Source: Iphinoe sp. HA4291-MV1 (lineage in GTDB: Bacteria; Cyanobacteriota; Cyanobacteriia; Cyanobacteriales; Nostocaceae). From it: 43,774 nt of DNA. The stretch is from assembly GCA_019359415.1 (NCBI GenBank), contig JAHHHH010000066.1:1-43774 (forward strand), written 5' to 3'. Within the stretch, counting starts at the first letter, position 1, and every line of letters starts with the position of its first letter. Made by a program: the position numbers and the translations under genes. The notes under the pieces were generated by a model. That model saw only the letters and a program-made list of their open reading frames with translations. It was not told the origin of the DNA and searched no databases. Below are positions 29,829-43,480 of the stretch, one piece after another.

Positions 29829-31454
29829 CTACTTCCCCTGCTCACGCTGCTCCCTCAATTTCCTCAAGAGGTTTTCTTGAGCTAAGGAGGGAGTTATCTG
29901 ACGACTAGTAGGTTGAGATTGTTTACTAGCACTCTTAGTCTCAACTGACTGTTGATAGTAACTTGAGGTAGAATTTGTCAAGGTAATAGCGGTAGGTTGA
30001 AATATTTTGTCAGCACTTTTAGCAGTAGTAGGTGAGAGATTGAACATCATCGGCTGTTGACGAGTGCTTGAGGTAGGAGAAGTCAAGGTAATGGCGGTAG
30101 GTTGAAACGTTTTATCAGCACTGTTAGCAGCAGTGAATGGGAGACTAAATGACATCTGCTGTTGGTTTGTATTGGGTGCGGAAATTGCAGTGTTAGAGTT
30201 GTGAGCAGCAGCTTTTACCGAATCTAGAGTATTAGCAATTTGCACTTGCTGCTGCATCTGCTGAGTGGAAGATACCAAGCTACTTAAACCATTAACCAGT
30301 TGCCGTAGATTTTGCCGAAAAGTTGGATCTCCGGTCAACTCATCCAAATCAGATGTAATCTTTTGGGTGTTCTCAAATGTCACTCGTGCAGAATCTAAAG
30401 TTTGTTGCAGAACCAACACGTTATTGGGATTGTTGAGGGAGTTGGAAACTTCGCGCAAATTAGCAGAAGCCTGCGCAGCATTTGCAGACAGAGTTTCTAA
30501 ATTTTTGATTAATTCTCCTTGGGTAACACGATTGACAGTAGGTGATAGGCTACTAACTGTCTTGCGCAGTTGGTTGCTAGTTTCGGTGATATTGTTTAAC
30601 GCTGCAACAAGTGAAGAGCGGTTGCTAGTGACCAGACTATCAAGATTATTAATCAGCTTACTGACTTGACTGGTCGTTAAACGAACATCTTTAGCGGTAG
30701 CACTAAATTGGTCTGCGGTATTACCGAGTTGATTCAAAGTTTTGGTAGTGGATGTACTGAGTTGAGTTGTTGCTTGTTGAACTGTATTGCTTGTAGTAGA
30801 AACAGTGTTCAGTTGTTGTTGAAAGCTTTTGCTTAAAACACTGAGATTGCGACTTAATTCAGCAACATTTGTTGCAGCAACACCAGTATTTTCCACAGCC
30901 TTATTGACGTTTCTATAGAATGTGGGATCACTGTATATAGTTGTCAATTGAGTTGTTGTGCGAATAAGTTCATCAAGACTGATGCCGATTTGACCTTTTA
31001 ACCGAGAACCATTACAAATGATAATTTCGCGGTTGCAATTTTTTTCTAACGGTTTGGCTACCACAATCCCAGAAGGTAGCTGCGTTTTTGGTGTGATGTC
31101 AATAATGCTTTCGCTAATGAGTCCGGACTGATTCGCTTCAACTGTAACATTGCTGGGAATGATGAGCTTGGGGTTAGTAATTTCAATTTCCACCTCAATG
31201 TTGTTTGGTCCTGGTCGAATAGCAGAAATATTGCCTACCTTCACACCACGATACCGAACCACCGCTCCTTTTTGCATACCGCCTGCATTAGCAAATTCAA
31301 CAAAAGCTTTGTATGAACTGCGAGCAGCATTGAATCTAGTTAACCACAAAATGATTAACCCAAATACTCCCAGTCCCAGCAGAAGCAACAACCCGACAGA
31401 ACCTTCTCGAAATGTTCGCGCAGACGCGAAGCGGTTTGTCAATAGACCTCGCAT
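29829..31454 (-). CDS. MCE/MlaD-family lipid-transport protein
   Basis: About 541 residues. One N-terminal membrane helix (G-L-L-L-L-L-G-L-G-V-F-G-L-I-I-L-W-L) is followed by a single MCE domain (F-V-E-F-A-N-A-G-G-M-Q-K-G-A-V-V-R-Y-R-G-V-K-V-G). A long helical region follows (~170-430) rich in Thr/Gln/Asn. MCE proteins form hexameric rings that carry lipids between membranes with an ABC ATPase/permease. The C-terminus has two ~36-residue repeats around S-A-D-K-x-F-Q-P-T-A-I-T-L-T. I take the ATG at 31454, which has GAGGA nine bases upstream; a GTG at 31469 adds five codons. The ATPase gene lies upstream in the same operon; no MlaE permease is in the window. Confidence 0.88.
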   Translation of the reverse strand: MRGLLTNRFASARTFREGSVGLLLLLGLGVFGLIILWLTRFNAARSSYKAFVEFANAGGMQKGAVVRYRGVKVGNISAIRPGPNNIEVEIEITNPKLIIPSNVTVEANQSGLISESIIDITPKTQLPSGIVVAKPLEKNCNREIIICNGSRLKGQIGISLDELIRTTTQLTTIYSDPTFYRNVNKAVENTGVAATNVAELSRNLSVLSKSFQQQLNTVSTTSNTVQQATTQLSTSTTKTLNQLGNTADQFSATAKDVRLTTSQVSKLINNLDSLVTSNRSSLVAALNNITETSNQLRKTVSSLSPTVNRVTQGELIKNLETLSANAAQASANLREVSNSLNNPNNVLVLQQTLDSARVTFENTQKITSDLDELTGDPTFRQNLRQLVNGLSSLVSSTQQMQQQVQIANTLDSVKAAAHNSNTAISAPNTNQQQMSFSLPFTAANSADKTFQPTAITLTSPTSSTRQQPMMFNLSPTTAKSADKIFQPTAITLTNSTSSYYQQSVETKSASKQSQPTSRQITPSLAQENLLRKLREQREQGK

Positions 31455-31469
31455 TTTAATTTTCCTCAC

Positions 31470-31541
31470 CTACGGATTTTAGATTTTAGATTTTAGATTG
31501 TAGATTTTGCTTCTATCTGAAATCCAAAATCCAAAATTATC
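31470..31541 (-). repeat. Degenerate heptamer repeat between Mla genes
   Basis: Repeats of ATTTTAG (31476-31505) followed by AATCCAAAATCC words: a short STRR-like block in the 72-base gap between the ATPase and MCE genes. Confidence 0.6.
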
Positions 31542-32324
31542 CTAACCAACAACCTGAATTGGTCCAGAAACACTTCCACTGACAAATTGTCGAATCAAAG
31601 GATGATCTGTAGTATCTATTTCACTAACATTACCTTGCCATTGCACTTTACCTTGGTAAAGAAACACCACCCTGTCAGCCGTGCGACGAATGGTGCTTTC
31701 TTGGTGAGTCACAATGGCGTAAGTGCTACAAGCTCCTTGCGTACATTGCAAATGTCGAATTAAATCTTCTATCACAGTGGAAGCAATTGGATCAAGTCCG
31801 GCTGTTGGTTCATCGTACAGTAAAACGTCCGGAGTGTCTTTGGGGTTATCGGGGTTAGACATAATTGCACGAGCAAAGCTGACTCGTTTTCGCATACCCC
31901 CAGAAAGTTCGGCTGGGTAGCGATCGCCTATTCTTGATAACCCCACCATCTCCAATTTTTCATTCACCAGTTCTCGAATCCGAGAACGCGGTAGTGTTGA
32001 GTGTTGATAAAGTGAAAAACCCACATTCTCCTCCACCGTTAGTGAATCAAATAACGCCGCCTGCTGAAACACCATACCAATACCAACCGGATCTGTACCA
32101 TCCTCAATCAACCCCTCTCGCCGCACCCCTCTGATATAAATTTCTCCAGAATCAGGAGCAATCAACCCAGCAACCACCCGTAAAATAGTTGATTTACCAG
32201 TACCACTAGGACCAATGATTCCTAATGCTTCTCCTCGGTAAATCACCAAGTCCACGTTATCTAAAACCTTATTGCTACCGAAGGATTTAGAAACGCCTTT
32301 GAGTTCAATCAACGGTTCACTCAT
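31542..32324 (-). CDS. ABC transporter ATPase, MlaF-type
   Basis: A 260-residue ABC ATPase. Walker A is G-P-S-G-T-G-K-S-T, the signature L-S-G-G-M-R-K-R-V-S-F-A-R-A-I and Walker B L-L-Y-D-E-P-T-A-G-L-D-P. The L-S-G-G-M-R-K-R variant and the MCE gene directly downstream mark it as the MlaF-type ATPase that powers lipid trafficking across the envelope. It is first of the two-gene unit. The insertion C-T-Q-G-A-C-S in the helix after Walker B is unusual but in a variable spot. Confidence 0.9.
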   Translation of the reverse strand: MSEPLIELKGVSKSFGSNKVLDNVDLVIYRGEALGIIGPSGTGKSTILRVVAGLIAPDSGEIYIRGVRREGLIEDGTDPVGIGMVFQQAALFDSLTVEENVGFSLYQHSTLPRSRIRELVNEKLEMVGLSRIGDRYPAELSGGMRKRVSFARAIMSNPDNPKDTPDVLLYDEPTAGLDPIASTVIEDLIRHLQCTQGACSTYAIVTHQESTIRRTADRVVFLYQGKVQWQGNVSEIDTTDHPLIRQFVSGSVSGPIQVVG

Positions 32325-32489
32325 TGTTCAGGAGTCAAAACTCAGGAGTCAAGAGTCAAAATAAGTTACCTCAAATTTTGCACCATAATGTTCGTCCGCC
32401 AAAAAAATAAACTTCTTGACTCAAAGTTCAAGTTCGTTAAAATTTACATCTTGTTTACATCTTGCACTACAATCAAGAACGCTATTTTT

Positions 32490-32553
32490 GTAGGGTGGGC
32501 ACTGCTCACCGAAACTGTAGACTCTTATTTTAACGTTGGTGTGCCCACCCTAC
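32490..32553. repeat. Palindromic repeat GTAGGGTGGGCA
   Basis: GTAGGGTGGGCA (32490-32501) and TGCCCACCCTAC (32542-32553) are perfect inverted repeats, with inner GCTCACC / GGTG. This is a MITE-like dispersed repeat of cyanobacterial type. It abuts the broken end of the oxidoreductase fragment. Confidence 0.7.
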
Positions 32554-32564
32554 GTTTATAGCAA

Positions 32565-32757
32565 CGCTAAGCTAACCCATGAAGAATTAGCAAAAATAAC
32601 GCCTCAAGGTGCAAAGGAATTCAAACGTTTTGAGGAACGCTTGTTACCATTATACGAGGCGATGAAAGGGATTCCTACCTTGGCTTTGCGGGTAGATTGG
32701 CGGGTGATTCCTGTGTTAATTGGACGTTATTTACCATCTTTGTTAGAGATGCAGTAG
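32565..32757 (+). pseudogene. FAD-dependent oxidoreductase (CrtO/phytoene-desaturase-like) fragment
   Basis: Residues read N-A-K-L-T-H-E-E-L-A-K-I-T-P-Q-G-A-K-E-F-K-R-F-E-E-R, then L-P-L-Y-E-A-M-K and I-P-V-L-I-G-R-Y-L-P-S-L-L-E-M-Q and a stop. The 'E-E-L-A-K-x-x-P-x-x-A-K' helix and following segment resemble an internal part of NAD(P)/FAD-dependent oxidoreductases of the CrtO group, which are ~500 residues. Only ~63 residues remain. Its left edge lies at the palindromic repeat. Confidence 0.45.
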
Positions 32758-33084
32758 CAGCGTCTGGTATTGTGTGCGAATACATTAGTATACATTGGTG
32801 AGGCGATCGCTCGTTTTTTGATAATGCTTCTTCTGTATGGTTACGGGTATTTACAGGTTATCTTGCTTTTTGAATGACAATCAATTTTTGGAATTTGGTG
32901 AGAGAACAGATTTTAATTATGAGACAATTGTTTAGCTTTAGACTGCAAATATAAATTTGCGTCATGTTGTTTGAGGCGATCGCTTCTCATTTTTTGTTGC
33001 TATTCTTGGTGCGATCTGCGCTTTGCACAGCAATGTATGTCCGGAGAACAGGCTCCTTCATGTGCACAGCGTCTCGTAGAGAAG
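32758..33084. other. Gap with no supported gene
   Basis: AT-rich DNA with two GCGATCGC octamers and a GC-richer patch at ~33010-33085. I see no coding or RNA feature. Confidence 0.35.
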
Positions 33085-33588
33085 CTATTGCTCGTTTGAT
33101 GTCTCTTCTGGACTGGGAGTTGTAGGTTCTTCAATTATCAAGGTGACTTTGTATTCTCCTGGTGCAATTTCATCATAATTATCAGTATCAAGTTGTGCTG
33201 TCAGTTTGCCATCTGATGTCACAGTAGCTTCTGCCTTAAAGGTTTTGATTGTCACTTCCTGCTCATTCTCTTCACCTGGAATCAATTCTTCAGAAATCAG
33301 ATTTACTGGTTCTTTAATGAGTAGAGTAACCAGATGTTCTCCTGGTAAAATATCAGAGGGAACAAGTGTAATTATCTGGCTGTTTGATATAACAGTAGCT
33401 TGTGCTTCCAGCCACCTCAGTGTCACATATCTCACACCCTCTTCGCTTGTGATTTTTACTATAGGCTTTCTATCTTTGGGATAGCGATTGTAATATTTTC
33501 CCCTCACGGCTCGACTCCAGTTTTTCTCTAGCATCTCTGAGTAGTCATCGAGCATTTCATCATCTTGGGAATTAAATACCTTGTTCAT
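33085..33588 (-). CDS. Hypothetical protein with an internal beta repeat
   Basis: 167 residues from the ATG at 33588 (a GTG at 33603 adds five codons). I do not recognise the family. The N-terminus is helical and mixed-charge (D-D-E-M-L-D-D-Y-S-E-M-L-E-K-N-W). It is followed by two similar ~55-residue units with matching pieces: A-Q-A-T-V-I-S-N ... I-L-P-G-E-H-L-V-T-L-L-I-K-E-P, and A-E-A-T-V-T-S-D ... I-A-P-G-E-Y-K-V-T-L-I-I-E-E-P. These look like duplicated beta-sandwich strands. No signal peptide. It is a single gene among repeats. Confidence 0.7.
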   Translation of the reverse strand: MNKVFNSQDDEMLDDYSEMLEKNWSRAVRGKYYNRYPKDRKPIVKITSEEGVRYVTLRWLEAQATVISNSQIITLVPSDILPGEHLVTLLIKEPVNLISEELIPGEENEQEVTIKTFKAEATVTSDGKLTAQLDTDNYDEIAPGEYKVTLIIEEPTTPSPEETSNEQ

Positions 33589-33695
33589 ATAATTTTCTTT
33601 CACTATTTGTCACAAGCCTAGCACTAATAATTCGAGTCTTGTCTCCTCTGTCTGTATGAATCACCAATAAGTAGGTCAACATAAATAAACTAAAA

Positions 33696-33731
33696 ACACA
33701 GATCCCCGACTTCTGAAAGAAGTCGGGGATC
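33696..33731. repeat. Hairpin repeat (GATCCCCGAC family), copy 3
   Basis: GATCCCCGACTTCT and AGAAGTCGGGGATC form a near-perfect stem. The loop differs from that of copies 1 and 2, and the flanking ACACA is on one side only. Confidence 0.75.
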
Positions 33732-33885
33732 TTACAACGTGCATGTTACGTTTAATTTAGTTGTTCTACTTAGCAGCCGTTGATTCTGAGAATAGCCTAT
33801 AGTTATAAAACGTAATTCTTCAATAGAGTGTTGCTCATCATCAAGAGTCATGCAGAATGCAATACTGCTCGGATAAGCAAAAATT

Positions 33886-33916
33886 AGAAACCCGGTTTCT
33901 TTAAGAAACCGGGTTT
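33886..33916. terminator. Hairpin terminator (GAAACCCGGTTTC family)
   Basis: AGAAACCCGGTTTCTT and AAGAAACCGGGTTT form a 14-16 bp stem. It lies 12 bases downstream of the UPF0175 stop (minus strand) and probably ends that transcript. Confidence 0.65.
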
Positions 33917-33928
33917 ATTTTATCTGTA

Positions 33929-34198
33929 TCAGGCATTCTCTAAATCGCTAAGCAGTTCTTCTTCTGTTAAATCAATCATTGGGACTCCATAGCGATGCAA
34001 ATTGAGCAAGAAAGAAACTCGATCTATACCTGCTAATTGTGCTGCTACGCCTGAGGAAATGCGTTTCATTTCAAACAGCTTCACCGCCATTGCCATTTTG
34101 GCTTCTTGTTCAAACTGTTTTCGAGTCTGTTGCAGGGCGTCTGGTAGAGTTTCTGGGTAGTCAATTTTCAGTTGTAATGACATATTATTGTGAGACAT
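33929..34198 (-). CDS. UPF0175 family protein, antitoxin-like
   Basis: An 89-residue protein: Y-P-E-T-L-P-D-A-L-Q-Q-T-R-K-Q-F-E-Q-E-A-K-M-A-M-A-V-K-L-F-E, then I-S-S-G-V-A-A-Q-L-A-G-I-D-R-V-S-F-L-L-N-L-H-R-Y-G-V. This is the UPF0175 pattern, small helix-turn-helix proteins often paired with DUF3368 PIN toxins. No DUF3368 gene is next to it here, so it is an orphan or acts elsewhere. It lies 137 bases downstream of (not in line with) the three-gene STAND operon. An internal ATG at 34183 is possible. Confidence 0.8.
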   Translation of the reverse strand: MSHNNMSLQLKIDYPETLPDALQQTRKQFEQEAKMAMAVKLFEMKRISSGVAAQLAGIDRVSFLLNLHRYGVPMIDLTEEELLSDLENA

Positions 34199-34335
34199 TC
34201 TTGACTTTATACCAATTTTAGAATTGCGATGAGCAACATCGCACGTTTAAAATAACTTTACTCACATTTTGCGTCTGCGTTTTCGTCCACCAAGAAATTT
34301 ATTTCTTGGCTCAAAGTCAAGTAAGCTAAAGCTCA

Positions 34336-35541
34336 CTAAATATAGCAATCAAGCTTGGCGTAAATGTTCTTCAAGTGCTTTTTGACAGTGTTGATGGTAA
34401 TGTAAAGCTGAGTCGCAATCTCTTTATAAGAAAGGTTAGCTCGACGCAATAGCCAAATTTCTGCTTCTCGTGGAGTCAGATCATATTTTTGAGCTTCCGC
34501 AAGCGCTAGATTTTGGTTTGAATGAGAATGATTGACAGCTTTCTCACCTAGCTTTCTGACTTGTGCAATGAGTTCTGTTGTTGGTGTATCTTTTTTACAA
34601 AAAGCATCCAAGCTGTCTACTTCCCTCGTTTCTTGACACTTAGTGTCTTCCACTGAGAAATAAGCAATGATTTGGGTATTTGGAGCAATAGCTTTGATAT
34701 GACTAGAGGCACTCCAACCGTCCATAACTGGCATATGTAAATCTAGTACTATCACGTCAGGGTGATAGCGTTTAACCATTTCTACCGCTTCTTGACCATT
34801 ACTGGCTAAACCGACAACTTGAATATTTTTCTGCCTAGAAAAGGCTAATTTTAGGGTTAAACGAGTCAGTTCGTGGTCGTCAACCACTAGAACACGTAAA
34901 ACACTTGGCTGGTCCTTATAAAGTCCTAAACTTCCCAACGCCTTATCCCGGTTTTTCCAGGCTTTATCTTTGTCTGATTGAATTTTAAAGGCTTGGTTGT
35001 AAGATGCGATTGCCTTCTCTTCGCAACCCAATTCATCTAACGCCTTTCCTCGGTAATACCAAGCTTTAGCATAATCAGGTTTTAACTCAATGGCTTTGTC
35101 GTAGCTAACAATTGCCTCTTCGTAAAAGTCCAAGCCATACAACGCATTGCCACGAGCATACCAAGCTTTGTAATAATCAAGTTTGATTTCTAGGGCTTTG
35201 TCTAAGCTGGCGATCGCTTCTTCGTAGCTGCCTAAATTCTTCAGCACAACCCCGCGACCGTACCATGCTTTGTAGTCATTGGGGTTAATTTCTAAGAGTT
35301 TGTCGTAATCTTCATAAGTATAAATCTGCCGATTTTGCTCATCAGATGCTTTTGATTCATCTGCATTTACCAAGAAAGAAGCGAGTGCTTCTTCAACAGT
35401 TGCTGACAGCAAGTCTGAGTCAGAACCAGAGCGAAACTTAAGTTGATTGTACAGTTCTAGTGGAAGAGAGAATTTGAGCCTAACCTTTTCCACGTTAAGC
35501 TTAACCGTTTGCCAGTCAATTATCTTCTCTGGATTACTCAT
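34336..35541 (-). CDS. TPR-receiver-LuxR HTH regulator with N-terminal RHH-like segment
   Basis: A 401-residue fusion. Residues ~17-57 (V-R-L-K-F-S-L-P-L-E-L-Y-N-Q-L-K-F-R ... V-E-E-A-L-A-S-F-L) look like a ribbon-helix-helix unit. Residues ~77-205 hold four TPR repeats (A-W-Y-x-R-G, Y-E-E-A-I). Residues 215-332 are a response-regulator receiver with acidic D221/D222, phosphoacceptor D267 (V-L-D-L-H-M-P) and K316/K317. Residues 353-398 are a LuxR-type helix-turn-helix (L-T-P-R-E-A-E-I-W-L-L). It overlaps the preceding gene by 8 bases and is third in the operon. No sensor kinase is next to it; the STAND proteins upstream may take that role. It is probably the transcriptional output. Confidence 0.88.
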   Translation of the reverse strand: MSNPEKIIDWQTVKLNVEKVRLKFSLPLELYNQLKFRSGSDSDLLSATVEEALASFLVNADESKASDEQNRQIYTYEDYDKLLEINPNDYKAWYGRGVVLKNLGSYEEAIASLDKALEIKLDYYKAWYARGNALYGLDFYEEAIVSYDKAIELKPDYAKAWYYRGKALDELGCEEKAIASYNQAFKIQSDKDKAWKNRDKALGSLGLYKDQPSVLRVLVVDDHELTRLTLKLAFSRQKNIQVVGLASNGQEAVEMVKRYHPDVIVLDLHMPVMDGWSASSHIKAIAPNTQIIAYFSVEDTKCQETREVDSLDAFCKKDTPTTELIAQVRKLGEKAVNHSHSNQNLALAEAQKYDLTPREAEIWLLRRANLSYKEIATQLYITINTVKKHLKNIYAKLDCYI

Positions 35542-36202
35542 CTTCCACCTCTAAATGAGCTAGGTAGAGTGCAACTGCTTGCCTTGCAATTGCTGATATG
35601 TGCTCGGAGTCAGCTTCTACTCGATGTTTTAACTGCTGGTACAGTTTTGGCTGGGTATCTATTTCTATTGTAGGTGTAACCTTTTCTTGACCAAATTCAA
35701 ATTCTCCAGAGCGCCAGTCATAAAAATCTGGAGCACGCTGAATGAAGTATTTAAGACCAAACAGCCGTACAATGAATATAAAGCAAATCTTAAGGTCATC
35801 TCTGAACCGCTCTCGCTGTTGGTTTAAATGATTTAAAATTCGCGGAACAGAATCCACTTTATAAAAGTTACCTTGACCCCCATATCCCGTTTTAATATAT
35901 TCAACAAAAGACTTTTCGATACCTGTTATAAAAAGAACATCAATTTTATTTTTATTTGAAGTTTTCTCCACAACAATATTATATAAATTTTCAATCGGTT
36001 CATCTAGCTGCAAAACCTTAATTTGTTTTTGAGGCAGCTCCTCCTGGACTCTCGAAATCAACCGCTTACTTTCAGCAGGAGAACACCGGACAAACAATAA
36101 GCGAAAGCCTTCTGTCCGCTTTAGAGTACGAACAAAGGTTTGATATTCTTCCTCCGGGTCAGAGGGTAAATCATCATCCCAATCACTTAAATCTGGGTTC
36201 AT
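35534..36202 (-). CDS. Inactive STAND-like protein with C-terminal RHH-like segment
   Basis: A 222-residue protein. Residues ~31-170 follow the N-terminal NTPase layout of cyanobacterial STAND/TPR proteins: a strand (G-F-R-L-L-F-V-R-C) where a P-loop would sit, I-D-V-L-F-I-T-G-I in the Walker B position, L-N-H-L-N-Q-Q-R-E-R-F, and the diagnostic A-P-D-F-Y-D-W-R-S-G-E-F-E-F. The P-loop Gly-Lys-Ser/Thr is missing (S-P-A-E-S-K-R-L), so it should not hydrolyse NTP. Residues ~177-216 (T-Q-P-K-L-Y-Q-Q-L-K-H-R ... I-A-R-Q-A-V-A-L-Y-L) resemble a ribbon-helix-helix unit. It overlaps both neighbours (4 and 8 bases), indicating coupled translation. Confidence 0.72.
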   Translation of the reverse strand: MNPDLSDWDDDLPSDPEEEYQTFVRTLKRTEGFRLLFVRCSPAESKRLISRVQEELPQKQIKVLQLDEPIENLYNIVVEKTSNKNKIDVLFITGIEKSFVEYIKTGYGGQGNFYKVDSVPRILNHLNQQRERFRDDLKICFIFIVRLFGLKYFIQRAPDFYDWRSGEFEFGQEKVTPTIEIDTQPKLYQQLKHRVEADSEHISAIARQAVALYLAHLEVEDE

Positions 36203-37524
36203 GGAAGTTTCGCCACAGCTTCTTTAAATTCGGAAATCCCTTGAATCAATGGGTGAATATCATACCAACGCTGCATTTCTCCATCATCATCCAAATAGCG
36301 ATATTCTAAAAGACAGCGGTTATACATCAAACTGCGATACTGGTCATCATTAATAATACGCTTAGAACGCGAGACTTCCGCCAGCAGACACCATTGATGA
36401 TTTTCCACTGCACGATGATAGTCATCTCTAGCTTGAGTGATTGCTCGTCGCACTGCTTTTTCAGAAATTGGTAACTCTTCTGTGCGTCCAATGGCATTTT
36501 GAGTTAACAATAGCAAATTTCTGACATGACCTCCACTCATCAAACACAATCTTTCTAAGGTTTGCTGACTATCAAAAATTCCTTTTTCCAAAGGGAGTTC
36601 TTGTTCAATTTGCCGGACTCGCTTCTTAATGACTTCTTTGACTTTATTGAGTCCTGGTTCGTAAATTTCTCCTGTGTGAGTTTTGACCATAATCATAGGT
36701 AAAATCAAGCATTCACCGTAAATATCCCTGATGTCTGTTGCCCGTTTAGAATACAACATAGAAATGGGAGCAGTATAAATTAAATGGCAATTCAAAGCTT
36801 TGAGTTGTTCACTGCGGTCTAAAAAAACTTCTTCATGGTTCGTGTTTTCCCCATCTTTAACTAATACCATCCGGTCTAAGTTATCGACAATCACCGCCAG
36901 TTGAGTATAGCCGTTTGGTAGTTTGCTTTTTGCATCTGCAAGGAATTCATTCAACACCTTAATTAAGGTGACAGTGTGGGGATTGATTTTTTGGCGAATC
37001 TGATGGCGTAATTCGGGAACAGCTCTTAAATTAGCTGTCAGTTTAGCAAATTGAGCGATTTGTGCTTCTACTTTCATGTTGTCAAACTCTATCGAAGTTT
37101 GCGCCAAATCTTTCAATTCTTGCCAGCGTTCTTTGAGCCAGTTTAGCACTGGACTCGTATCGCCAAATTTTTGTAAATCTTTGAGCAATCGGCGGGTACA
37201 AGCGAGGAGTATATCTGTATATTGGGCGTCTTCTGAGTCAATATCTTCTTCATCAGCAGCAAAATAAACAACATAGAATTTGCGATTTTCTAAATATTGT
37301 TTCAATCTAAGTAATTCTGTAGACTTCCCCGCCCCCCGATGTCCAGAGTACAATTGGCAAGTATTTCTATTTGCTCGTTGTATGCGATTTCCCAACTCAT
37401 TTAAAATATCCGCATCTCCGCGCACATCCTGACAATCAACATACCTGAGATCATCTGCGGGTAAAGGTTCAAATGGGTTAAAGGCATTGTATAGATTTGT
37501 GAGTAATTCTTGACTATCAAGCAT
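36199..37524 (-). CDS. AAA/STAND-like ATPase, first gene of a three-gene operon
   Basis: A 441-residue P-loop ATPase. Walker A is G-H-R-G-A-G-K-S-T (61-69), Walker B-like A-V-I-V-D-N-L-D-R-M (210-219), a sensor-like L-I-Y-T-A-P strand, and a winged-helix-like C-terminus (L-C-L-M-S-G-G-H-V-R-N-L-L-L-L-T-Q, then Y-R-Y-L-D-D-D-G). This is close to ORC/Cdc6-STAND-type NTPases that act as switches. No transmembrane segment. It begins the operon and its stop overlaps the next ATG. The 14-unit repeat array lies 239 bases upstream of its start. Its job in the system is inferred to be sensing or signal assembly. Confidence 0.82.
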   Translation of the reverse strand: MLDSQELLTNLYNAFNPFEPLPADDLRYVDCQDVRGDADILNELGNRIQRANRNTCQLYSGHRGAGKSTELLRLKQYLENRKFYVVYFAADEEDIDSEDAQYTDILLACTRRLLKDLQKFGDTSPVLNWLKERWQELKDLAQTSIEFDNMKVEAQIAQFAKLTANLRAVPELRHQIRQKINPHTVTLIKVLNEFLADAKSKLPNGYTQLAVIVDNLDRMVLVKDGENTNHEEVFLDRSEQLKALNCHLIYTAPISMLYSKRATDIRDIYGECLILPMIMVKTHTGEIYEPGLNKVKEVIKKRVRQIEQELPLEKGIFDSQQTLERLCLMSGGHVRNLLLLTQNAIGRTEELPISEKAVRRAITQARDDYHRAVENHQWCLLAEVSRSKRIINDDQYRSLMYNRCLLEYRYLDDDGEMQRWYDIHPLIQGISEFKEAVAKLP

Positions 37525-37762
37525 GGGTAAGAAATGTTGCCATCTTTTTCAGACTAAGTACATAATTACATAAGTTCATAGCGAAAACTAGAACGAATAC
37601 TCTGCGTACCTACCCTGCGGGAAGGCGAACGCGAGTGCGTGTCGCTTTGCGACTCAGCGCCTATGCGTTTACCGAGCGCGCTCCTCTGCGTTTAAAAACG
37701 TTACGAATTAATGAAATGCTGTACTAAGTCCAATACTGTTTAGTTAAGGATTGTTTTTGGGG
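37525..37762. other. Upstream region of STAND operon
   Basis: No gene. A GC-rich repeat-like block (GCGGGAAGGCGAACGCG ... GCGCGCTCCTCTGCG) at ~37605-37690 separates the operon start from the tandem array. The operon promoter should lie here but was not identified. Confidence 0.4.
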
Positions 37763-38056
37763 AAACACTCATCCACGAGTTCCAAACACTCTCCGACGAG
37801 TTCCAAACACTCTCCGACGAGTTCCAAACACTCTCCGATGAGTTCCAAACACTCTCCGATGAGTTATAAACACTCTCCGACGAGTTCCAAACACTCTCCG
37901 ACGAGTTCCAAACACTCTCCGATGAGTTATAAACACTCTCCGATGAGTTATAAACACTTTCCGATGAGTTATAAACACTCTCCGACGAGTTCCAAACACT
38001 CTCCGACGAGTTCCAAACACTCTCCGACGAGTTCCAAACACTCTCCGACGAGTTAT
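37763..38056. repeat. Fourteen 21-bp direct repeats
   Basis: Fourteen perfect-length units with no spacers. Each begins AAACACTCTCCGA and ends either CGAGTTCC or TGAGTTAT. Variants by unit: 1 is divergent (…CATCCACGAGTTCC); 2, 3, 6, 7, 11, 12 and 13 are the CGAG/TTCC form; 5, 8, 9 and 10 the TGAG/TTAT form (10 with one change); 4 and 14 are hybrids. Each unit contains ACTC-N6-GAGT, a small inverted repeat. The period is two helical turns. The array is open in frame on both strands but has no credible protein context. It lies between the nuclease-like gene and the STAND operon. Confidence 0.95.
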
Positions 38057-38076
38057 AAACGTATTTTGAATACTTC

Positions 38077-38712
38077 CTACAACTGACAAATTGCTTTCAA
38101 AGCTTGTAACAACAGAATTGAACGCTGTCTTTCCATCAAATTTAATTCTGGCATCAGGTGATAAGTGGGAGCATGTCCCGGTTGGATATTGACAAACTGA
38201 TAACTTCTTCCATTCGTTGTCAAACCCCAAACTGATTTTTGATGCTCTAAACTTTTATGAGCGTATGTCAGCAGTTGAGGCAATCCTGTTAATACATCAA
38301 TCTGACTATTTTTAGATTCAATTAATAATACCCAAAAAAATGCATTAACTTTTGTACGTTTCGCTTTAGTAACAGCTAAAATATCGAATCTGCCTTTAAT
38401 TTTTGTATCTTCATCTTCAATTTCTATATCAGCTATATCTTCTTCCAGAAGAATCTCTATAGGGTAGCGGTAAAAACCAGCCAACCTCATCAAAGGAGCA
38501 AGTACAAGAAACTTCACCTGCCCTTCGGAAACTGTACCAGTTGTCAGGTATCTATTAAAGTCATCCCGTATTTGCACAAGTTCTTGCTGTTCCACTTCTG
38601 TCAGTGGCTCCAAGGATAACAAGGGTGTGAACGAGTCACTGTAATATTCTTGGAAGCCTAAAAGACGCTGAACGTCTTCTAGAGATAAATTACTAGCCTT
38701 GAGGATTGTCAT
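38077..38712 (-). CDS. PD-(D/E)XK nuclease-like protein (type I R N-terminal-like)
   Basis: A 211-residue protein similar to small cyanobacterial proteins annotated as restriction-endonuclease subunits. Possible catalytic residues of the PD-(D/E)XK fold are visible: G-R-F-D110-I-L-A-V, then W-V-L-L-I-E132-S-K134-N-S (an E-x-K). The preceding Q-V-K-F-L-V-L-A-P-L-M-R-L-A-G-F is the usual N-terminal helix of this group. There are no helicase or methylase genes nearby, so it is not part of a standard restriction system here. It stops 21 bases before the tandem array and points the same way as the STAND operon, 552 bases upstream of it. Confidence 0.7.
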   Translation of the reverse strand: MTILKASNLSLEDVQRLLGFQEYYSDSFTPLLSLEPLTEVEQQELVQIRDDFNRYLTTGTVSEGQVKFLVLAPLMRLAGFYRYPIEILLEEDIADIEIEDEDTKIKGRFDILAVTKAKRTKVNAFFWVLLIESKNSQIDVLTGLPQLLTYAHKSLEHQKSVWGLTTNGRSYQFVNIQPGHAPTYHLMPELNLMERQRSILLLQALKAICQL

Positions 38713-38873
38713 AGTTGTGTTTTGTGTATTTTTAATACTTATTTTCTTATAAATCTCATACCAATAAGACTTTTAAGCAATTTTAAGGCAAATTTCTCAA
38801 TTTCATGATTTTTCTTGCGGAATAGGCTGATCACACAGTGATTCTAAAGGTACAAACACATTGAGGAATAACA

Positions 38874-39395
38874 ATGACCTTTACAAATCAAGAAAGCCTC
38901 GCTGCTCAACTTAACAAGCCTGTTCTTAAGGAAGGTTCCAAAGGTGAAGCAGTTAAAGAACTGCAAAAACTGCTGTTAAAATGGGGTGCTTTTGTATATC
39001 TCGATAACAATGGTGCTTGTGTATTTCCTGGTGAAGAAGTCATTGACGGCGTATTTGGTCCAAAGACAAAAAATGCGGTTCTACTCTTCCAAGGTAAGAA
39101 GTTTCTTGTACAAGATGGGATTGTGGGAGATAAAACTTGGCGATCGCTTTTTCTGAATGCGCCAGTTGATATGCCTATCCTAAAGAAAGGTAGCAAGGAA
39201 GAAGAACTCGTTAAAAAGGTTCAAGAAAGACTAGCGATCGCTGACTACTACAAGGGTAGAATTGATGGTGACTTTAATCACCGTACAGAAAACGCAGTCA
39301 AAGCTTTGCAGAAGCACACAGGGTTACCTGTAGATGGAATTATTGAAGATCGCACTTGGTTTGAGTTAAGCCAGATCAATACAGTTTTCTGTTAA
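38874..39395 (+). CDS. Protein of two peptidoglycan-binding domains
   Basis: A 173-residue protein made almost only of two PG_binding_1 units: L-K-E-G-S-K-G-E-A-V-K-E-L-Q-K-L-L ... I-D-G-V-F-G-P-K-T-K-N-A-V ... G-I-V-G-D-K-T-W, and L-K-K-G-S-K-E-E-E-L-V-K-K-V-Q ... I-D-G-D-F-N-H-R-T-E-N-A-V ... G-I-I-E-D-R-T-W. There is no signal peptide and no enzyme domain, which is unusual for a wall-binding protein, so it may be exported by another route or bind something else. A GAGGA lies 8 bases before the ATG. It shares a hairpin terminator with pyrC. Confidence 0.85.
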   Translation: MTFTNQESLAAQLNKPVLKEGSKGEAVKELQKLLLKWGAFVYLDNNGACVFPGEEVIDGVFGPKTKNAVLLFQGKKFLVQDGIVGDKTWRSLFLNAPVDMPILKKGSKEEELVKKVQERLAIADYYKGRIDGDFNHRTENAVKALQKHTGLPVDGIIEDRTWFELSQINTVFC

Positions 39396-39407
39396 CTCCT
39401 TTGCTTC

Positions 39408-39444
39408 AAAAAAACCCGGTTTCTCTTAGAAACTGGGTTTTTTT
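39408..39444. terminator. Bidirectional terminator (GAAACCCGGTTTC family)
   Basis: AAAAACCCGGTTTCT and AGAAACTGGGTTTTT around a short loop with A- and T-runs on both sides, between convergent genes. One G:T-type mismatch. Confidence 0.7.
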
Positions 39445-39464
39445 GATTGTTGAATTTCTATGAA

Positions 39465-40766
39465 CTAACACCAAGTTTGCACAACCCGACCTGTTAATTG
39501 CTGTCCCAGCCAAAATGTATTACTAGAACGTGTATACAGATTTTGCTTTTCCACTTTCCAGTTTTGCTGCGGATCAAACAAAGTGAGTTCCGCTTTTTGA
39601 TCAGGTGCGATCGCATTTATTTTCTGTTGTAAACACTCTGCTGGACGAGTACTCAGAGCCTTCCACAATTCCAAAGCTGTAAACTCCCCACTTTCTACCA
39701 AATGCTGCCATAACAGGGGTAATGCTAACTCGTAACCAATTGCTCCGCTTGGAGCTTCGGCAAAGGCAACGGTTTTTTCTTCATAGGTGTATGGTCTGTG
39801 ATCTATGGCTATGGCATCTATAACACTTGTCCGTACTGCCTCTCGTAACGCTGCTACGTCACCAGGATTACCCAAAGGTGGTTCTAAACGAAGGCTTGTA
39901 TTATAGCTTTTAACTGCTTGCGTGTCAAATAAAAGATGCATCCAAGTTGTACTAACGGTAATAGGCATACCTCTAGCTTTGGCTGATGCAATCAGTTCGA
40001 CACTGCGGGCAGTGGAGACACGCATGATATGTACTGGTGTACTTGTGGCGGTGACCAATTCCAACAAAGCAGCGATCGCAGAGGTTTCTGCACTAGTCGG
40101 TACAAAAGGCAACCCAAAACGGATAGCATCTGGACCTTCACGGATCACACCATTTCCCATCAATTCGCGATCGCAACACCAAAATGCGACTGGTTTCCTC
40201 AAAGGCTGGATGTATTCTAACACCCGACGCACCAATCCAAAATTTTCCCAAGGCTGACCATCAGTAAAGCCAACCACCCCAACTGCTGCCAAGTCTACCA
40301 ATTCAGTCATCTGCTTACCAGCAGCATCTAGACTGATTGCACCCCAAATGTTGAGCAGGGGAGCAGGGGAGCAGGGGAGCAGGGGAGAAGAATTTACGTT
40401 CTCTCTCTCCCTCATCTCCCCTCCTCGCTTCTGCAACTGTATTGCCACAGATGGATTATCAATCGCTGGGGACGTATCAGGTAAGATACTAATTCGTGTA
40501 AAGCCGCCAGCAGCAGCGGCTTGTAAGAGAGACAAGAGGGTTTCGCGTTCTTCAAACCCTGGTTCTCCAGAGTGGCTATACAAATCTACTAACCCTGGTC
40601 CTAAAACCAATCCATGACAATCTCTGTAGGAAGTGTTATTTGGCACATCAGAAATGTTATGATTCACAGACCTGATATAGCCGTCATCAATGAGCACGTC
40701 AGCAATTCGGTCAGTTCCAGAAACAGGGTCGATCACCCTTACTTGTTGTAGCAGTTCACTTATCAT
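39465..40766 (-). CDS. pyrC: Dihydroorotase homologue (PyrC-like), altered metal site
   Basis: 433 residues from the ATG at 40766; a TTG at 40778 adds four codons. It is an amidohydrolase-fold protein matching cyanobacterial dihydroorotases over its whole length (S-I-L-P-D-T-S-P-A-I-D, H-I-M-R-V-S-T-A-R, L-R-L-E-P-P-L-G-N, S-T-R-P-A-E-C). The metal motif that is normally D-x-H-x-H reads D-L-Y-S-H, so the first His is Tyr (residue 67 from the TTG). The later D-H-A-P-H-type motif reads D-H-R-P-Y. It may be a structural, PyrX-like partner or an enzyme with changed chemistry. Residues ~121-142 are a repeat-derived insert. Confidence 0.8.
   Translation of the reverse strand: MISELLQQVRVIDPVSGTDRIADVLIDDGYIRSVNHNISDVPNNTSYRDCHGLVLGPGLVDLYSHSGEPGFEERETLLSLLQAAAAGGFTRISILPDTSPAIDNPSVAIQLQKRGGEMRERENVNSSPLLPCSPAPLLNIWGAISLDAAGKQMTELVDLAAVGVVGFTDGQPWENFGLVRRVLEYIQPLRKPVAFWCCDRELMGNGVIREGPDAIRFGLPFVPTSAETSAIAALLELVTATSTPVHIMRVSTARSVELIASAKARGMPITVSTTWMHLLFDTQAVKSYNTSLRLEPPLGNPGDVAALREAVRTSVIDAIAIDHRPYTYEEKTVAFAEAPSGAIGYELALPLLWQHLVESGEFTALELWKALSTRPAECLQQKINAIAPDQKAELTLFDPQQNWKVEKQNLYTRSSNTFWLGQQLTGRVVQTWC
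40359..40392 (-). repeat. 8-bp repeat insert inside the dihydroorotase gene
   Basis: Four to five copies of GGGGAGCA-type units (AGCAGGGG) sit in frame within the gene and encode S-P-A-P-L/S-P-L-L-P-C residues, next to a CTCTCTCTCCCTC stretch. It looks like a tandem-repeat expansion tolerated in a surface loop. Confidence 0.75.
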
Positions 40767-40842
40767 TTTAGCTACCAACTATCAGCTATTAGCTATCAGC
40801 TTTTTAACTTTTCTAAGGACGGCTGGCTGAAAACTCTGCGCA

Positions 40843-40961
40843 ATCACACGCTGGAGGATGCCAGTCCCCTACGGTTCGCGTAGCGTCTCCCTTAGGAGAG
40901 GGAGACCCTCCTGCAGGGCTGGCTTATGAAAGCCGCTTTACAGCCTCAAGGCTGGTGTGAT
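40843..40961. repeat. Nested palindromic repeat
   Basis: The outer ends ATCACAC (40843-40849) and GTGTGAT (40955-40961) are inverted. Inside, CTGGAGG/CCTCAAG-type and CCAGTCC/GGGCTGG arms pair around a GC-rich centre (GGTTCGCGTAGCGTCTCCC). A MITE-like dispersed repeat with no coding capacity. Confidence 0.5.
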
Positions 40962-41095
40962 ATAATACTAAACAATAAATAGGCAACGTAAAAAGTACTT
41001 CAGAGTCAAGGTACTAGGTAAACCAATTCTTAGATTGAGTAGCCTATGGAACTCATAAAAAATGGGAAAAATTGATTGAAAAGAGAAACCAATAA

Positions 41096-41269
41096 GGCGC
41101 TTGGTTTGTCGGAATTAACGCTTGGGGACATGAATCCTCTACTCTAGCTGGATAGATCCTGTTAGGACAAGATTTGTGGAAGAGCCAAAAATCTCCTAGC
41201 CTTGATAGCTGGAGAGCGTCAAATGTTGTTAACCGTGGGTTTGTGTTAAATTTACTTAGAATCAACTAG
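41096..41269 (+). pseudogene. Probable C-terminal remnant of an IS200/IS605 TnpB
   Basis: In the plus frame this reads G-A-W-F-V-G-I-N-A-W-G-H-E-S-S-T-L-A-G, a stop at 41153-41155, then I-L-L-G-Q-D-L-W-K-S-Q-K-S-P-S-L-D-S-W-R. The 'GINAWG' turn followed by a Ser-rich tail resembles the end of cyanobacterial TnpB/OrfB proteins. It is short and broken; the assignment is from memory of the family only. Confidence 0.35.
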
Positions 41270-41302
41270 CGGTTCAAGGCTGACAGTTCAAACAGCTAAA
41301 TA

Positions 41303-42685
41303 CTACAATGCCCCTGCTGCTGTTTTATCGAGTACGCCGCCACCTAAGTGAGTGGTGATGTTCATTGCTTGCAGTACTGGAAAACCACTCGCTTCTAAGG
41401 GATAGTCGATAACAGTGATAGCACCGTTACCTTGACGGAAATTCCAAAAATGTTCTGACGACAAACCCAGAACGTGACAAAGCAATGCTTTGTTAGTAGC
41501 ATCATGAGCAACGATTAATCCGGTTTTGAGTTGTTTTGCCAATGCAGTTTGGACAATTGACTCCCATGCTACGACACTACGTTCCCACACTTGCTGTAAA
41601 TTTTCTCCTTCTGGCATTTGGACTTGTGCTGGAACTGTTCGCCACAGATGCAACTCTGTTGGGAATTCCTGCTCTATTTCTTTTTCTAATTTTCCTTCCC
41701 AAAGTCCGTGACCAATTTCCCTTAAACCATCTTGTAGTTCCAAATTGATATTAGTATGGTACTCCAAAATGATTTCTGCTGTTTCTTTAGGACGCAGCAT
41801 TGGGCTTGTGAGTGCAAAATCAATTGCTACGTCTTTGAGAAATTGAGCAGCTTTTTGTGATTGCTGTCTGCCATTATCGTTGAGGGGGACATCAATTTGT
41901 CCCTGAAATCTGGTTTGGCGGTTCCACTCGGTTTCTCCGTGACGCACCAGCAACAATCTTACACCTTTGTGATTTGGGCGCAAGGAGGGCAGAATGTCTC
42001 CAAGATGTTGTGTCTGATTGAGAGATTCTAGTTGGACTGGTTCTCCTAATCCTCCAGAAAAATTGAGTACACTGACGCTACAGTTAGATTGTTGTATGGA
42101 ATGGTAGCGTTCTGGAGAAATTAAGAGTGCCGTACTCAAAAGAGCACGATTAATGCCATTATGCCCTACGATAAGTATTGTTTCGCCTTGATGGCGAGGT
42201 AAAACTTCTTGCCAAAAGTGCCGCGCCTGTGCGTACAAAGCTAGAACAGGATAATGTTCTGTTGTGTGCTCACCGTCTTTCACAGACATCTGCAAGAGAT
42301 GAGGACTTTCATGCCAAGTGCGGTAGTCTTCAGGAAACTTCTCCTTCACTTCAGTAGACAGCATTCCCTGCCATAAAGGGAGATCAACCTCCATTAACTT
42401 ATCAGAAGTTTGAGGAACAGCAGATTGTTCAGCATGAATTGCCAGTTCATGGTGGATAATTTCTACTGTATCTTTCGCACGTTGCAAAGGACTGCTGTAT
42501 ATTGCGTTAAATAGGATGTTACTGAGGGCTTTGCCTACTTTACTAGAATCACTACGACCTTTTTCTGTTAACTTGGAAGCATCAGAGCGTCCTTGTATGC
42601 GCTTTTCGGTATTATAGGTACTTTGACCATGGCGCACGATAATCACACGAGTCACGTTTTGCCCTCCTGTATCTAAAGGACTCAT
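41303..42685 (-). CDS. Double-domain histidine phosphatase (phosphoglycerate mutase-like)
   Basis: A 460-residue tandem of two histidine-phosphatase domains. Each begins with the R-H-G motif (V-R-H-G-Q-S-T-Y-N at 17-25; V-R-H-G-E-T-E-W-N near 248) and contains the later catalytic His (V-G-H-N-G-I-N-R-A-L-L and V-A-H-D-A-T-N-K-A-L-L). Both sites look intact. Such fused proteins in cyanobacteria are annotated as phosphoglycerate mutase or alpha-ribazole-phosphatase-like; the true substrate is not clear from sequence. A single gene with no operon partner in view. Confidence 0.88.
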   Translation of the reverse strand: MSPLDTGGQNVTRVIIVRHGQSTYNTEKRIQGRSDASKLTEKGRSDSSKVGKALSNILFNAIYSSPLQRAKDTVEIIHHELAIHAEQSAVPQTSDKLMEVDLPLWQGMLSTEVKEKFPEDYRTWHESPHLLQMSVKDGEHTTEHYPVLALYAQARHFWQEVLPRHQGETILIVGHNGINRALLSTALLISPERYHSIQQSNCSVSVLNFSGGLGEPVQLESLNQTQHLGDILPSLRPNHKGVRLLLVRHGETEWNRQTRFQGQIDVPLNDNGRQQSQKAAQFLKDVAIDFALTSPMLRPKETAEIILEYHTNINLELQDGLREIGHGLWEGKLEKEIEQEFPTELHLWRTVPAQVQMPEGENLQQVWERSVVAWESIVQTALAKQLKTGLIVAHDATNKALLCHVLGLSSEHFWNFRQGNGAITVIDYPLEASGFPVLQAMNITTHLGGGVLDKTAAGAL

Positions 42686-42784
42686 TCTACTGCAAAGTGT
42701 AGGCAGAATAATCTCTTGATATTTTGTCAGATTGTTGCTAAGCGAGCAATAGTTTGGTCTTTAGATCAATAGTAGAACTCAGTA

Positions 42785-43480
42785 TTACTCTGAGCGTAGA
42801 GCTTTGACTGGGTCGATCTGACTAGCTCGCACAGCAGGGGGCAAACTAGCTCCCACTCCCACCAGTAGCGCTGAACCCAACGCCAGTGTAGCGATAGAGC
42901 TGTCAAACTGATAGGGCAAGTTAAAGGTATCGGTGACCATAACTGTCAATCCATGCACCACCCCAAGACCGACTGTTCCTCCAATGAGACTCAAAAGCGT
43001 AGCTTCCAGAATAAACTGCAGCATAATTTCCTGCTGGGTTGCTCCGACTGCCCGTCTCAAACCAATTTCAGCGGTTCGTTCCGCCACCGAGGCAATCATG
43101 ATATTCGCAATCCCGACACCGCCAACCAAGAGGGCGATCGCTCCCACCACTGTCAGTCCTTGGGATGCCATCTCCAGGTTTTTCTGCTGCTGTAGGATGT
43201 CTGACACATTGTTCCAAAACTTAAATTTTTGACCTGGGAATCTCTGCTGTAGCAGTTCCTCAGCTTGATGGCTCAAGTCTTCCACATCTTCGAGTTTGTA
43301 GGGACGCATTTGGATCCTACCAATGTCGCGGCTACCAGTCAGAGCATTGTAAACAGACATCGGTACATACAGTTGACCCGTAGGAGGTGCATTTTCATCT
43401 AGACTAGTCGCCACCACCCCCACAACAACATAAGGTCTGTCTCCAACATAAATCATCTTACCCAGAGCTGTTCGTTCAGG
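42785..43480 (-). pseudogene. MacB/FtsX-type ABC permease, 5'-truncated
   Basis: The frame runs from a TGA next to 43480 with E-R-T-A-L-G-K-M-I-Y-V-G-D-R-P-Y-V-V-V-G-V, which is the middle of a MacB-type periplasmic domain. It continues through a coiled segment and three C-terminal membrane helices with I-A-N-I-M-I-A-S-V-A-E-R-T-A-E-I-G-L-R-R-A-V-G-A, the FtsX/MacB signature, ending P-V-K-A-L-R-S-E. Full proteins are ~400 residues with another N-terminal helix and more periplasmic domain; ~180 residues are missing. The first ATG (43456) would make a 223-residue protein that is unlikely to work. The cut at ~43480 joins unrelated DNA. Confidence 0.8.

Follow-up and report, generated by a model that had tools for sequence, protein, structure and literature searches.

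By gene layout, the closest described counterpart of the locus analyzed here is the nSTAND2 two-gene system. In the passages of its description available to us, two nucleoside triphosphatase (NTPase) genes share one operon, one of them has eroded NTP-binding motifs, and variable cargo, mostly GT4 or HEPN, is carried by the inactive one (Kaur et al. 2021, PMC8195603). The same passages present nSTAND2 as a mobile counter-invader system and propose that the paired proteins form one complex. Our subject is a trio of genes, A, B and C, in the cyanobacterium Iphinoe sp. HA4291-MV1. The trio lies on contig JAHHHH010000066.1, a stretch of 43,774 nucleotides that is called the window and is one (C81) of the 140 contigs of a 7.36-Mb genome. 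A encodes a predicted active NTPase and B a partner that lacks a P-loop. C joins tetratricopeptide repeats (TPRs) to a receiver and a LuxR-type helix-turn-helix (HTH). A ribbon-helix-helix (RHH) segment is present both at the C-terminal end of B and at the N-terminal end of C; both were overlooked in the original prediction made for this DNA. Likened to nSTAND2 by gene layout and by the available description, the A-B pair may work in a similar way. The cargo differs, being TPR, HEAT, NACHT, HetZ-type or copied regulators, the last of these attached through the RHH of a third gene.

The iSTAND ternary system, as far as the available passages describe it, shares with the locus an inactive NTPase as the constant part, variable cargo drawn from cellular subsystems, and cyanobacterial holders (Kaur et al. 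2020, PMC7159879). An iSTAND MoxR-vWA ternary system was rejected for the window, since neither MoxR nor vWA was matched in any of the 16 open reading frames (ORFs) scanned with Pfam. These are 15 of the 35 ORFs of at least 120 aa and one of 89 aa; they cover the surroundings of the trio from 29829 to 43456 for ORFs of at least 120 aa, except a repeat ORF at 37769. The effector-associated domain (EAD) principle, in which the same adaptor sits on the core and on the effector (PMC7159879, available passages), is seen here in the RHH that B and C both carry, not only in the window but also in Brasilonema angustatum (L090), Iningainema tapete (L091), UBA11371 (L092) and Pleurocapsa MO_192.B19 (L095). 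The term ribbon-helix-helix has no occurrence in PMC7159879. The RHHs of B and of C relatives match the slr0373 model, and a protein of this family is encoded in the slr0373-slr0374-slr0376 stress operon of Synechocystis (PMC7496141). The accessible part of that account gives slr0374 as Ycf46 and makes no mention of a pseudo-ATPase, TPR or cargo. Other systems are reported, as far as the available text goes, to use receiver domains as kinase-free effectors and, for transcriptional output, an ECF-like HTH (named for extracytoplasmic function factors) (PMC8195603).

The original prediction knew of no described system with this set of genes. Paired active and inactive NTPases are in fact already predicted in the form of nSTAND2. 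Neither an RHH adaptor, nor the trio, nor regulator cargo on such an NTPase pair was found described in the open-access literature searched, part of which was available only as excerpts. Judged by those searches, the RHH adaptor with its copied-regulator cargo is what is new over the predicted paired systems. In plants, nucleotide-binding leucine-rich repeat proteins (NLRs) with integrated decoys join a copy of a host protein to an NTPase-based device. Their proteins are different from those of the trio.

The predicted active/inactive pair and the split trio

The three ORFs overlap end to end on the minus strand as first described, A with B by 4 bases (36199-36202) and B with C by 8 bases (35534-35541). 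A is predicted to be an ORC/TnsC/STAND-like ATPase. Its single Walker A motif recurs in 32 of 32 aligned A rows, D214 of VIVDNLD is invariant in both A alignments, and its fold is of the AAA+ type on the ORC/STAND side. Predicted helices and two strands at residues 377-423 mark the region of a possible C-terminal winged helix. STAND NTPases carry sensor repeats or an effector domain on the same chain. Pfam found no repeat or effector family in the 441 aa of A, and searches of solved structures by sequence gave weak matches only. The P-loop, the Walker motifs and the AAA+ fold fit the STAND-like ATPase first proposed, and the lack of same-chain repeats or effector does not.

The best reading of B is an AAA+-type core that would serve as a catalytically dead partner. 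Walker A is absent from all 46 aligned B rows, which rules out a hidden P-loop. The segment APDFYDWRSGEFEF (residues 157-170) contains P158, D159, F160, D162 and W163, which are invariant across these rows, as are the arginines R130 and R156. No Pfam family fits the core, PDB sequence searches gave weak matches without a relative, and profile comparison does not link B to A. By sequence, an origin of B through decay of an A copy was ruled out (hhalign probability <1%). The fold-search lists point to AAA+ in general and not to STAND in particular, so the inactive STAND protein first placed in the middle of the trio retains its missing P-loop and gains a more general fold assignment. Plasmid matches comprise nine records for A (best identity 35%) and one for B (28%).

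A-B is a recurrent cyanobacterial pair. A species-level scan with one genome per species identified 235 relatives, and the nearest 80 loci were kept. A lies upstream on the same strand for 76 of the 81 B genes in these loci, a count that includes partial A ORFs and two A genes at distances of 630 and 2,432 bases; these 76 show the nSTAND2 layout, in which an active NTPase gene neighbors an inactive one that bears the variable cargo. The overlap is exactly 4 bases in 51. Of the five B genes without A, three leave space for one (1,300 bases or more) and two do not. The usual form of B is fused to TPRs: among 60 relatives, 34 match B (E 0.001 or better), and the strong matches are mostly N-terminal in longer TPR-bearing frames. 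Other fusions are to HEAT (by Pfam) and to NACHT-HEAT (by eye). No TPR match was found in 13 of the 112 fetched B ORFs, which include some genes fetched twice and ORFs cut at contig ends. In Calothrix NIES-4101 (L105, 6001-8481), B-TPR is fused directly to a HetZ-related-2 region (E 1.3e-110, with 370 bits below the cut-off of 400), which is a second, separate link of HetZ kin to the platform. With at most 7 candidates per genome scored, B occurs at E 1e-30 in 136 of 388 sampled genomes of the order; among the matches listed from these genomes, three span the RHH end of the B model, including that of the window.

The trio that had been described as a unit recurs in the same order in four further genomes, with differing cargo. 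In this split form, a B of about 220 aa ends in RHH and is followed by an overlapping RHH-TPR gene; it was found in the window and in 4 of the 80 loci, a share that is biased upward because the nearest relatives were kept. The RHH of C is placed by an 81% match to the B. angustatum C, for which the slr0373 model gives a match of E 2.4e-08. A profile made from the RHHs of the trios was applied to the ORFs in loci L038-L069 and L090-L169. At E 2.4e-20 or better it matched B and C of the trios (by construction) and one standalone gene of the window's own genome (L066), and no other fetched B matched (next best E 0.05). RHH is limited to the split trios among the fetched B proteins. The cargo that follows the TPRs is a receiver and LuxR-type HTH in the window, GAF-SpoIIE in I. 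tapete (GAF below the cut-off), a HetZ-related region in UBA11371 (NF037964, E 6.3e-166, with 552 bits below the cut-off of 612), a second slr0373-like RHH in Pleurocapsa, and an unnamed family in B. angustatum.

For C of the window, Pfam confirms the TPRs, receiver and LuxR HTH of the original prediction, with the GerE match reaching position 47 of 57 only. Receiver and HTH together give C the NarL/FixJ layout. The receiver retains the acidic pair D221/D222, D267, S296 and K316/K317, which we take to act as the usual receiver residues. These domains and residues are what an ordinary response regulator with an orphan kinase would have, in which case C would be a NarL-like regulator with acquired TPRs and A-B an accessory. 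Pfam, however, finds no receiver in the four other trios. No histidine kinase was found among the window ORFs scanned, as originally noted for the adjacent genes; this also speaks against an ordinary regulator, but orphan kinase/regulator pairs exist, so a missing adjacent kinase weighs little. The whole receiver-HTH stretch is also otherwise unmatched in the 388 genomes: the HTH is covered only by the window's own match, with 8 candidates per genome scored and rare fusions possibly missed. We consider this explanation very improbable.

Receiver matches at E 1e-40 or better occur in 118 of the 388 genomes. The longest other receiver-HTH match reaches residue 173 of 196, through stops, and most stop near 130-150. 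The search does not support a receiver-HTH unit that moved whole as a known gene, and two captured pieces seem to be joined in C of the window. A recent truncation was rejected as the sole reason why the HTH is short, because in this genome the LuxR-type genes with the two closest HTHs also stop shortly after the same helix. In four loci (L102, L121, L099 and L118), a gene of 213-229 aa with a C-like HTH lies about 1.6-2.0 kb upstream of the A ORF and is a possible source of the HTH cargo.

Cassette exchange and kinship of the cargo

The alignments indicate that, under a resident A, a fused B gene gave way to a B-C cassette. In 60-base steps, DNA identity to Brasilonema sp. UFV-L1, in which B is fused, runs at 88-98% across A as far as 36161; from 36160, a point already within B, it is 42-71%. 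The downstream UFV-L1 flank is shared from about 34342, which places the stop codon of C at the edge of resident sequence, and the upstream flank 37777-40361 is also common to the window and UFV-L1. Identity to B. angustatum stays at 86-100% across A and B and into C as far as 35081, and then falls to 76%, 51% and 35-52%. The synonymous divergence (Ks) that separates the window from B. angustatum amounts to 0.283 in A, 0.097 in B and 0.185 in residues 1-165 of C. Since Ks of B is below that of A, B appears to have moved since A diverged.

The A and B trees conflict. They were built on 35 rows chosen from the loci, two of the five trio A rows being partial. A branch (92/87, not starred) separates the five RHH-type B proteins from the rest, and the corresponding A proteins need four label changes. 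A single clade of the five trio A proteins is rejected (p 5e-05), as is a grouping of the window and B. angustatum B proteins with the fused Brasilonema B proteins (p 7e-63). A of the window pairs with A of UFV-L1 (97/94), and in a quick tree A of B. angustatum pairs with CT11 A (92). CT11, the genomes G003 and G004, and in part Iningainema share the upstream flank of B. angustatum, which is not found in the window or UFV-L1. From this pattern of flanks and trees, the cassette would have entered at least two resident loci, or would have entered earlier with replacement in sister lineages.

Each of the five cargoes has a standalone relative in its own genome at 73-95% identity. For the receiver, the best own-genome relative is 81% identical in protein and 89% in DNA. 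All 8 genomes with the window's genus code, its own and seven others, have a standalone receiver gene, whose DNA is 86.7-89.8% identical to the cargo. The HTH is 77% identical in protein to a LuxR-type gene of the same genome (DNA 81% over 163 bases). The SpoIIE cargo of I. tapete is 95% identical over 455 aa to its standalone relative. The B. angustatum cargo is 95% identical over 248 aa, both copies being cut by contig ends; neither this cargo nor its relative (L199) has an informative family in Pfam or NCBIfam. The HetZ cargo is 73% identical to its best relative, and two more copies are at 67-68%. For the slr0373-like cargo of Pleurocapsa, identity is 88% over 66 aa and 68% over 99 codons. 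In the same Pleurocapsa genome (L244), a standalone slr0373-like RHH frame lies beside a frame that is AAA-like by eye, as in the slr0373-slr0374 operon.

Features of the locus and its surroundings

The coordinates of the genes, domains and homology boundaries are collected in Table 1.

Table 1. Genes, domains and homology boundaries of the trio in the window
Feature	Coordinates	Strand	Description
Gene A	36199..37524	minus	441 aa, predicted ATPase; Walker A GHRGAGKS 61-68, Walker B-like VIVDNLD 211-217, SGGHVR 330-335
Gene B	35534..36202	minus	222 aa; putative P-loop-less AAA+-type core (about residues 11-173) and C-terminal RHH
Gene C	34336..35541	minus	401 aa; RHH, TPRs, receiver and LuxR-type HTH
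RHH (slr0373-like), C-terminal end of B, residues 173-222	35537..35686	minus	slr0373 model, E 5.4e-05
RHH, N-terminal end of C, residues 17-65	35347..35493	minus	alignment with C of B. angustatum
TPRs of C, about residues 79-193	34963..35307	minus	Pfam TPR families; constant arm common to the five trios
Receiver cargo, about residues 215-331	34549..34899	minus	Response_reg, E 2.7e-18, residues 217-328
LuxR-type HTH cargo	34339..34516	minus	GerE, E 2.6e-08, residues 355-401, model positions 3-47 of 57
Homology to UFV-L1 fused A-B locus drops (start of B)	36160..36202
Homology to B. angustatum trio ends (cargo differs)	35020..35080
Shared UFV-L1 flank resumes; includes C stop codon	34336..34342

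Downstream of C, a UPF0175 protein (PF03683, E 4.8e-28) is encoded at 33929-34198 on the minus strand. Next to the A-B locus, conservation of its DNA is 92-97% in UFV-L1, G004 and S. hyalinum (Scytonema) and 85% in Tolypothrix. Two strong stem-loops of 15 and 13 pairs lie downstream of the trio at 33700-33732 and 33888-33916. Upstream of A, a tandem array at 37763-38054 contains about 14 copies of the 21-base unit AAACACTCTCCGACGAGTTCC, and repeats resembling it also lie upstream of A in UFV-L1. The ORF at 38077-38712 (minus strand) has a weak match to the restriction-enzyme N-terminal family HSDR_N_2 (E 0.013, below the cut-off). Promoter-like sites (9 versus 12.2 in shuffles) and terminator-like sites (4 versus 3.4) carry no informative signal in the window.

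Further relatives of A and B exist in the same genome. More distant A-B-like pairs are found at C60 and C127, the A match at C127 crossing one stop, and C76 encodes a B-like nSTAND1-WD40 protein. A decayed A-B locus lies at C52:60210-60629 (L065), where A residues 1-58 stand beside 395-440 and are followed by B residues 1-37. A 138-kb IMG/VR contig filed as viral (L246) contains a B-TPR stretch with no A within 3-kb flanks, and this contig is either a virus or misbinned host DNA.

Working model and its alternatives

The reading we favor, tentatively and at somewhat less than even chances, is that an NTPase and a pseudo-NTPase form a platform that holds a swappable, copied regulator. A and B overlap by 4 bases, and one appears active and the other dead, as in nSTAND2 pairs; for these reasons they are read as subunits of one complex, co-translated into a single ATP-switched platform. 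A would bind and hydrolyze ATP, and B would be a dead AAA+-type partner in contact with A. RHH folds are dimers, and in the split form RHH takes the place of the covalent link between B and the TPRs. The simplest reading is therefore that the RHH of B pairs with the RHH of C and holds the TPR arm on B non-covalently. The arm would bear a copied host regulator, which here is a receiver joined to a LuxR-type HTH. A signal would lead to ATP-driven assembly of A and B, the cargo would be clustered or released, and its regulatory activity would be switched. The HTH stops short of the end of the GerE model, and clustering could supply the dimer.

Constraint on the cargo bears on this model. The SpoIIE cargo has a ratio of nonsynonymous to synonymous divergence (Ka/Ks) of 0.07 and retains GDVMGKG, DDMTLV and RVGGDYYD. 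Pairwise Ka/Ks of the receiver cargo against 8 standalone genes is 0.07-0.16, a range that also carries the standalone gene's own history (0.11-0.15 among standalone receivers). These two cargoes look functional, and the others are less clear. Beyond the shared history in the receiver values, several observations weigh against a platform for copied regulators. Ka/Ks is 0.49 on 20 changes for the B. angustatum cargo, 0.24 for HetZ and 0.26 for the slr0373-like cargo, and the last two, at 73% and at 68% over 99 codons, are not near-copies. The RHH of B is poorly modelled, with a predicted local distance difference test score (pLDDT) below 50 over most of residues 174-222. A stretch of at least 75 aa beyond the core and TPRs is missing from 98 of the 112 fetched B ORFs, so regulator cargo is not general. 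The split trio is found in five genomes only, and three of the four named trio records are metagenome-assembled genomes (MAGs). A is a single ORF in the window, B. angustatum and I. tapete, but consists of two ORFs (205 and 234 aa) in UBA11371 and of a 145-aa piece in Pleurocapsa, where A may be broken or the MAG sequence faulty.

The rarity of the trio, A in pieces in two of the five, and the decayed remnant in the window's own genome would also be expected of a recombination product without selected function. TPR-rich genes would then recombine often and gather coding sequence, and the trio would be transient. The junctions, however, lie at gene borders, the fusions are in frame, and near-whole host proteins are the cargo in several trios. 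Ka/Ks is low in A, B and two cargoes. A product of recombination alone appears improbable.

Constrained cargo suggests a regulated output, whereas cargo that is copied from the host and exchanged also suggests decoys. In an integrated-decoy immune sensor, invader proteins that attack host regulators would bind the cargo as bait and trigger the A-B platform. The kinship of the cargo to host regulators and its difference between close strains are consistent with such a sensor. So is a weak match of A to the phage-defence candidate PDC-S20, found in 30 of the 32 A rows (best E 2.4e-06). By analogy, the predicted conflict systems also pair active and inactive NTPases with variable cargo (PMC8195603), and inactive enzyme copies have been suggested as decoys for other NTPase systems in the passages available from PMC7159879. 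Against bait stand the strong constraint on the two best-measured cargoes, with the SpoIIE motifs kept, and the fact that Pfam matched no nuclease and no other killing domain in the trio of the window. The neighboring ORFs scanned are mostly of housekeeping type, A has no match at E 1e-5 in 50,697 phage records, and none of the findings links the locus to phage. An immune sensor of this kind is rather unlikely, with a better case than a recombination product.

The platform reading can be carried further. The trio may be a device that captures copies of the host's own regulators on an RHH-TPR adaptor. The adaptor would be constant and docked to an active/inactive pair of NTPases, and its cargo would be swapped between close strains. 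Such a device would act as a programmable regulator or as a sensor with integrated decoys, and would be the bacterial counterpart of plant NLRs that carry integrated domains. This wider proposal is possible but doubtful. How such systems diversify can be seen directly in the replacement of an inactive partner together with its adaptor gene, under a resident ATPase gene. Because one adaptor occurs with five natural cargoes, the proposal lends itself to tests in which domains are exchanged. If it is true, multicellular cyanobacteria would put copies of their own regulators, including a developmental one of the HetZ type, under an ATP-switched platform, or would use them as bait for invaders.

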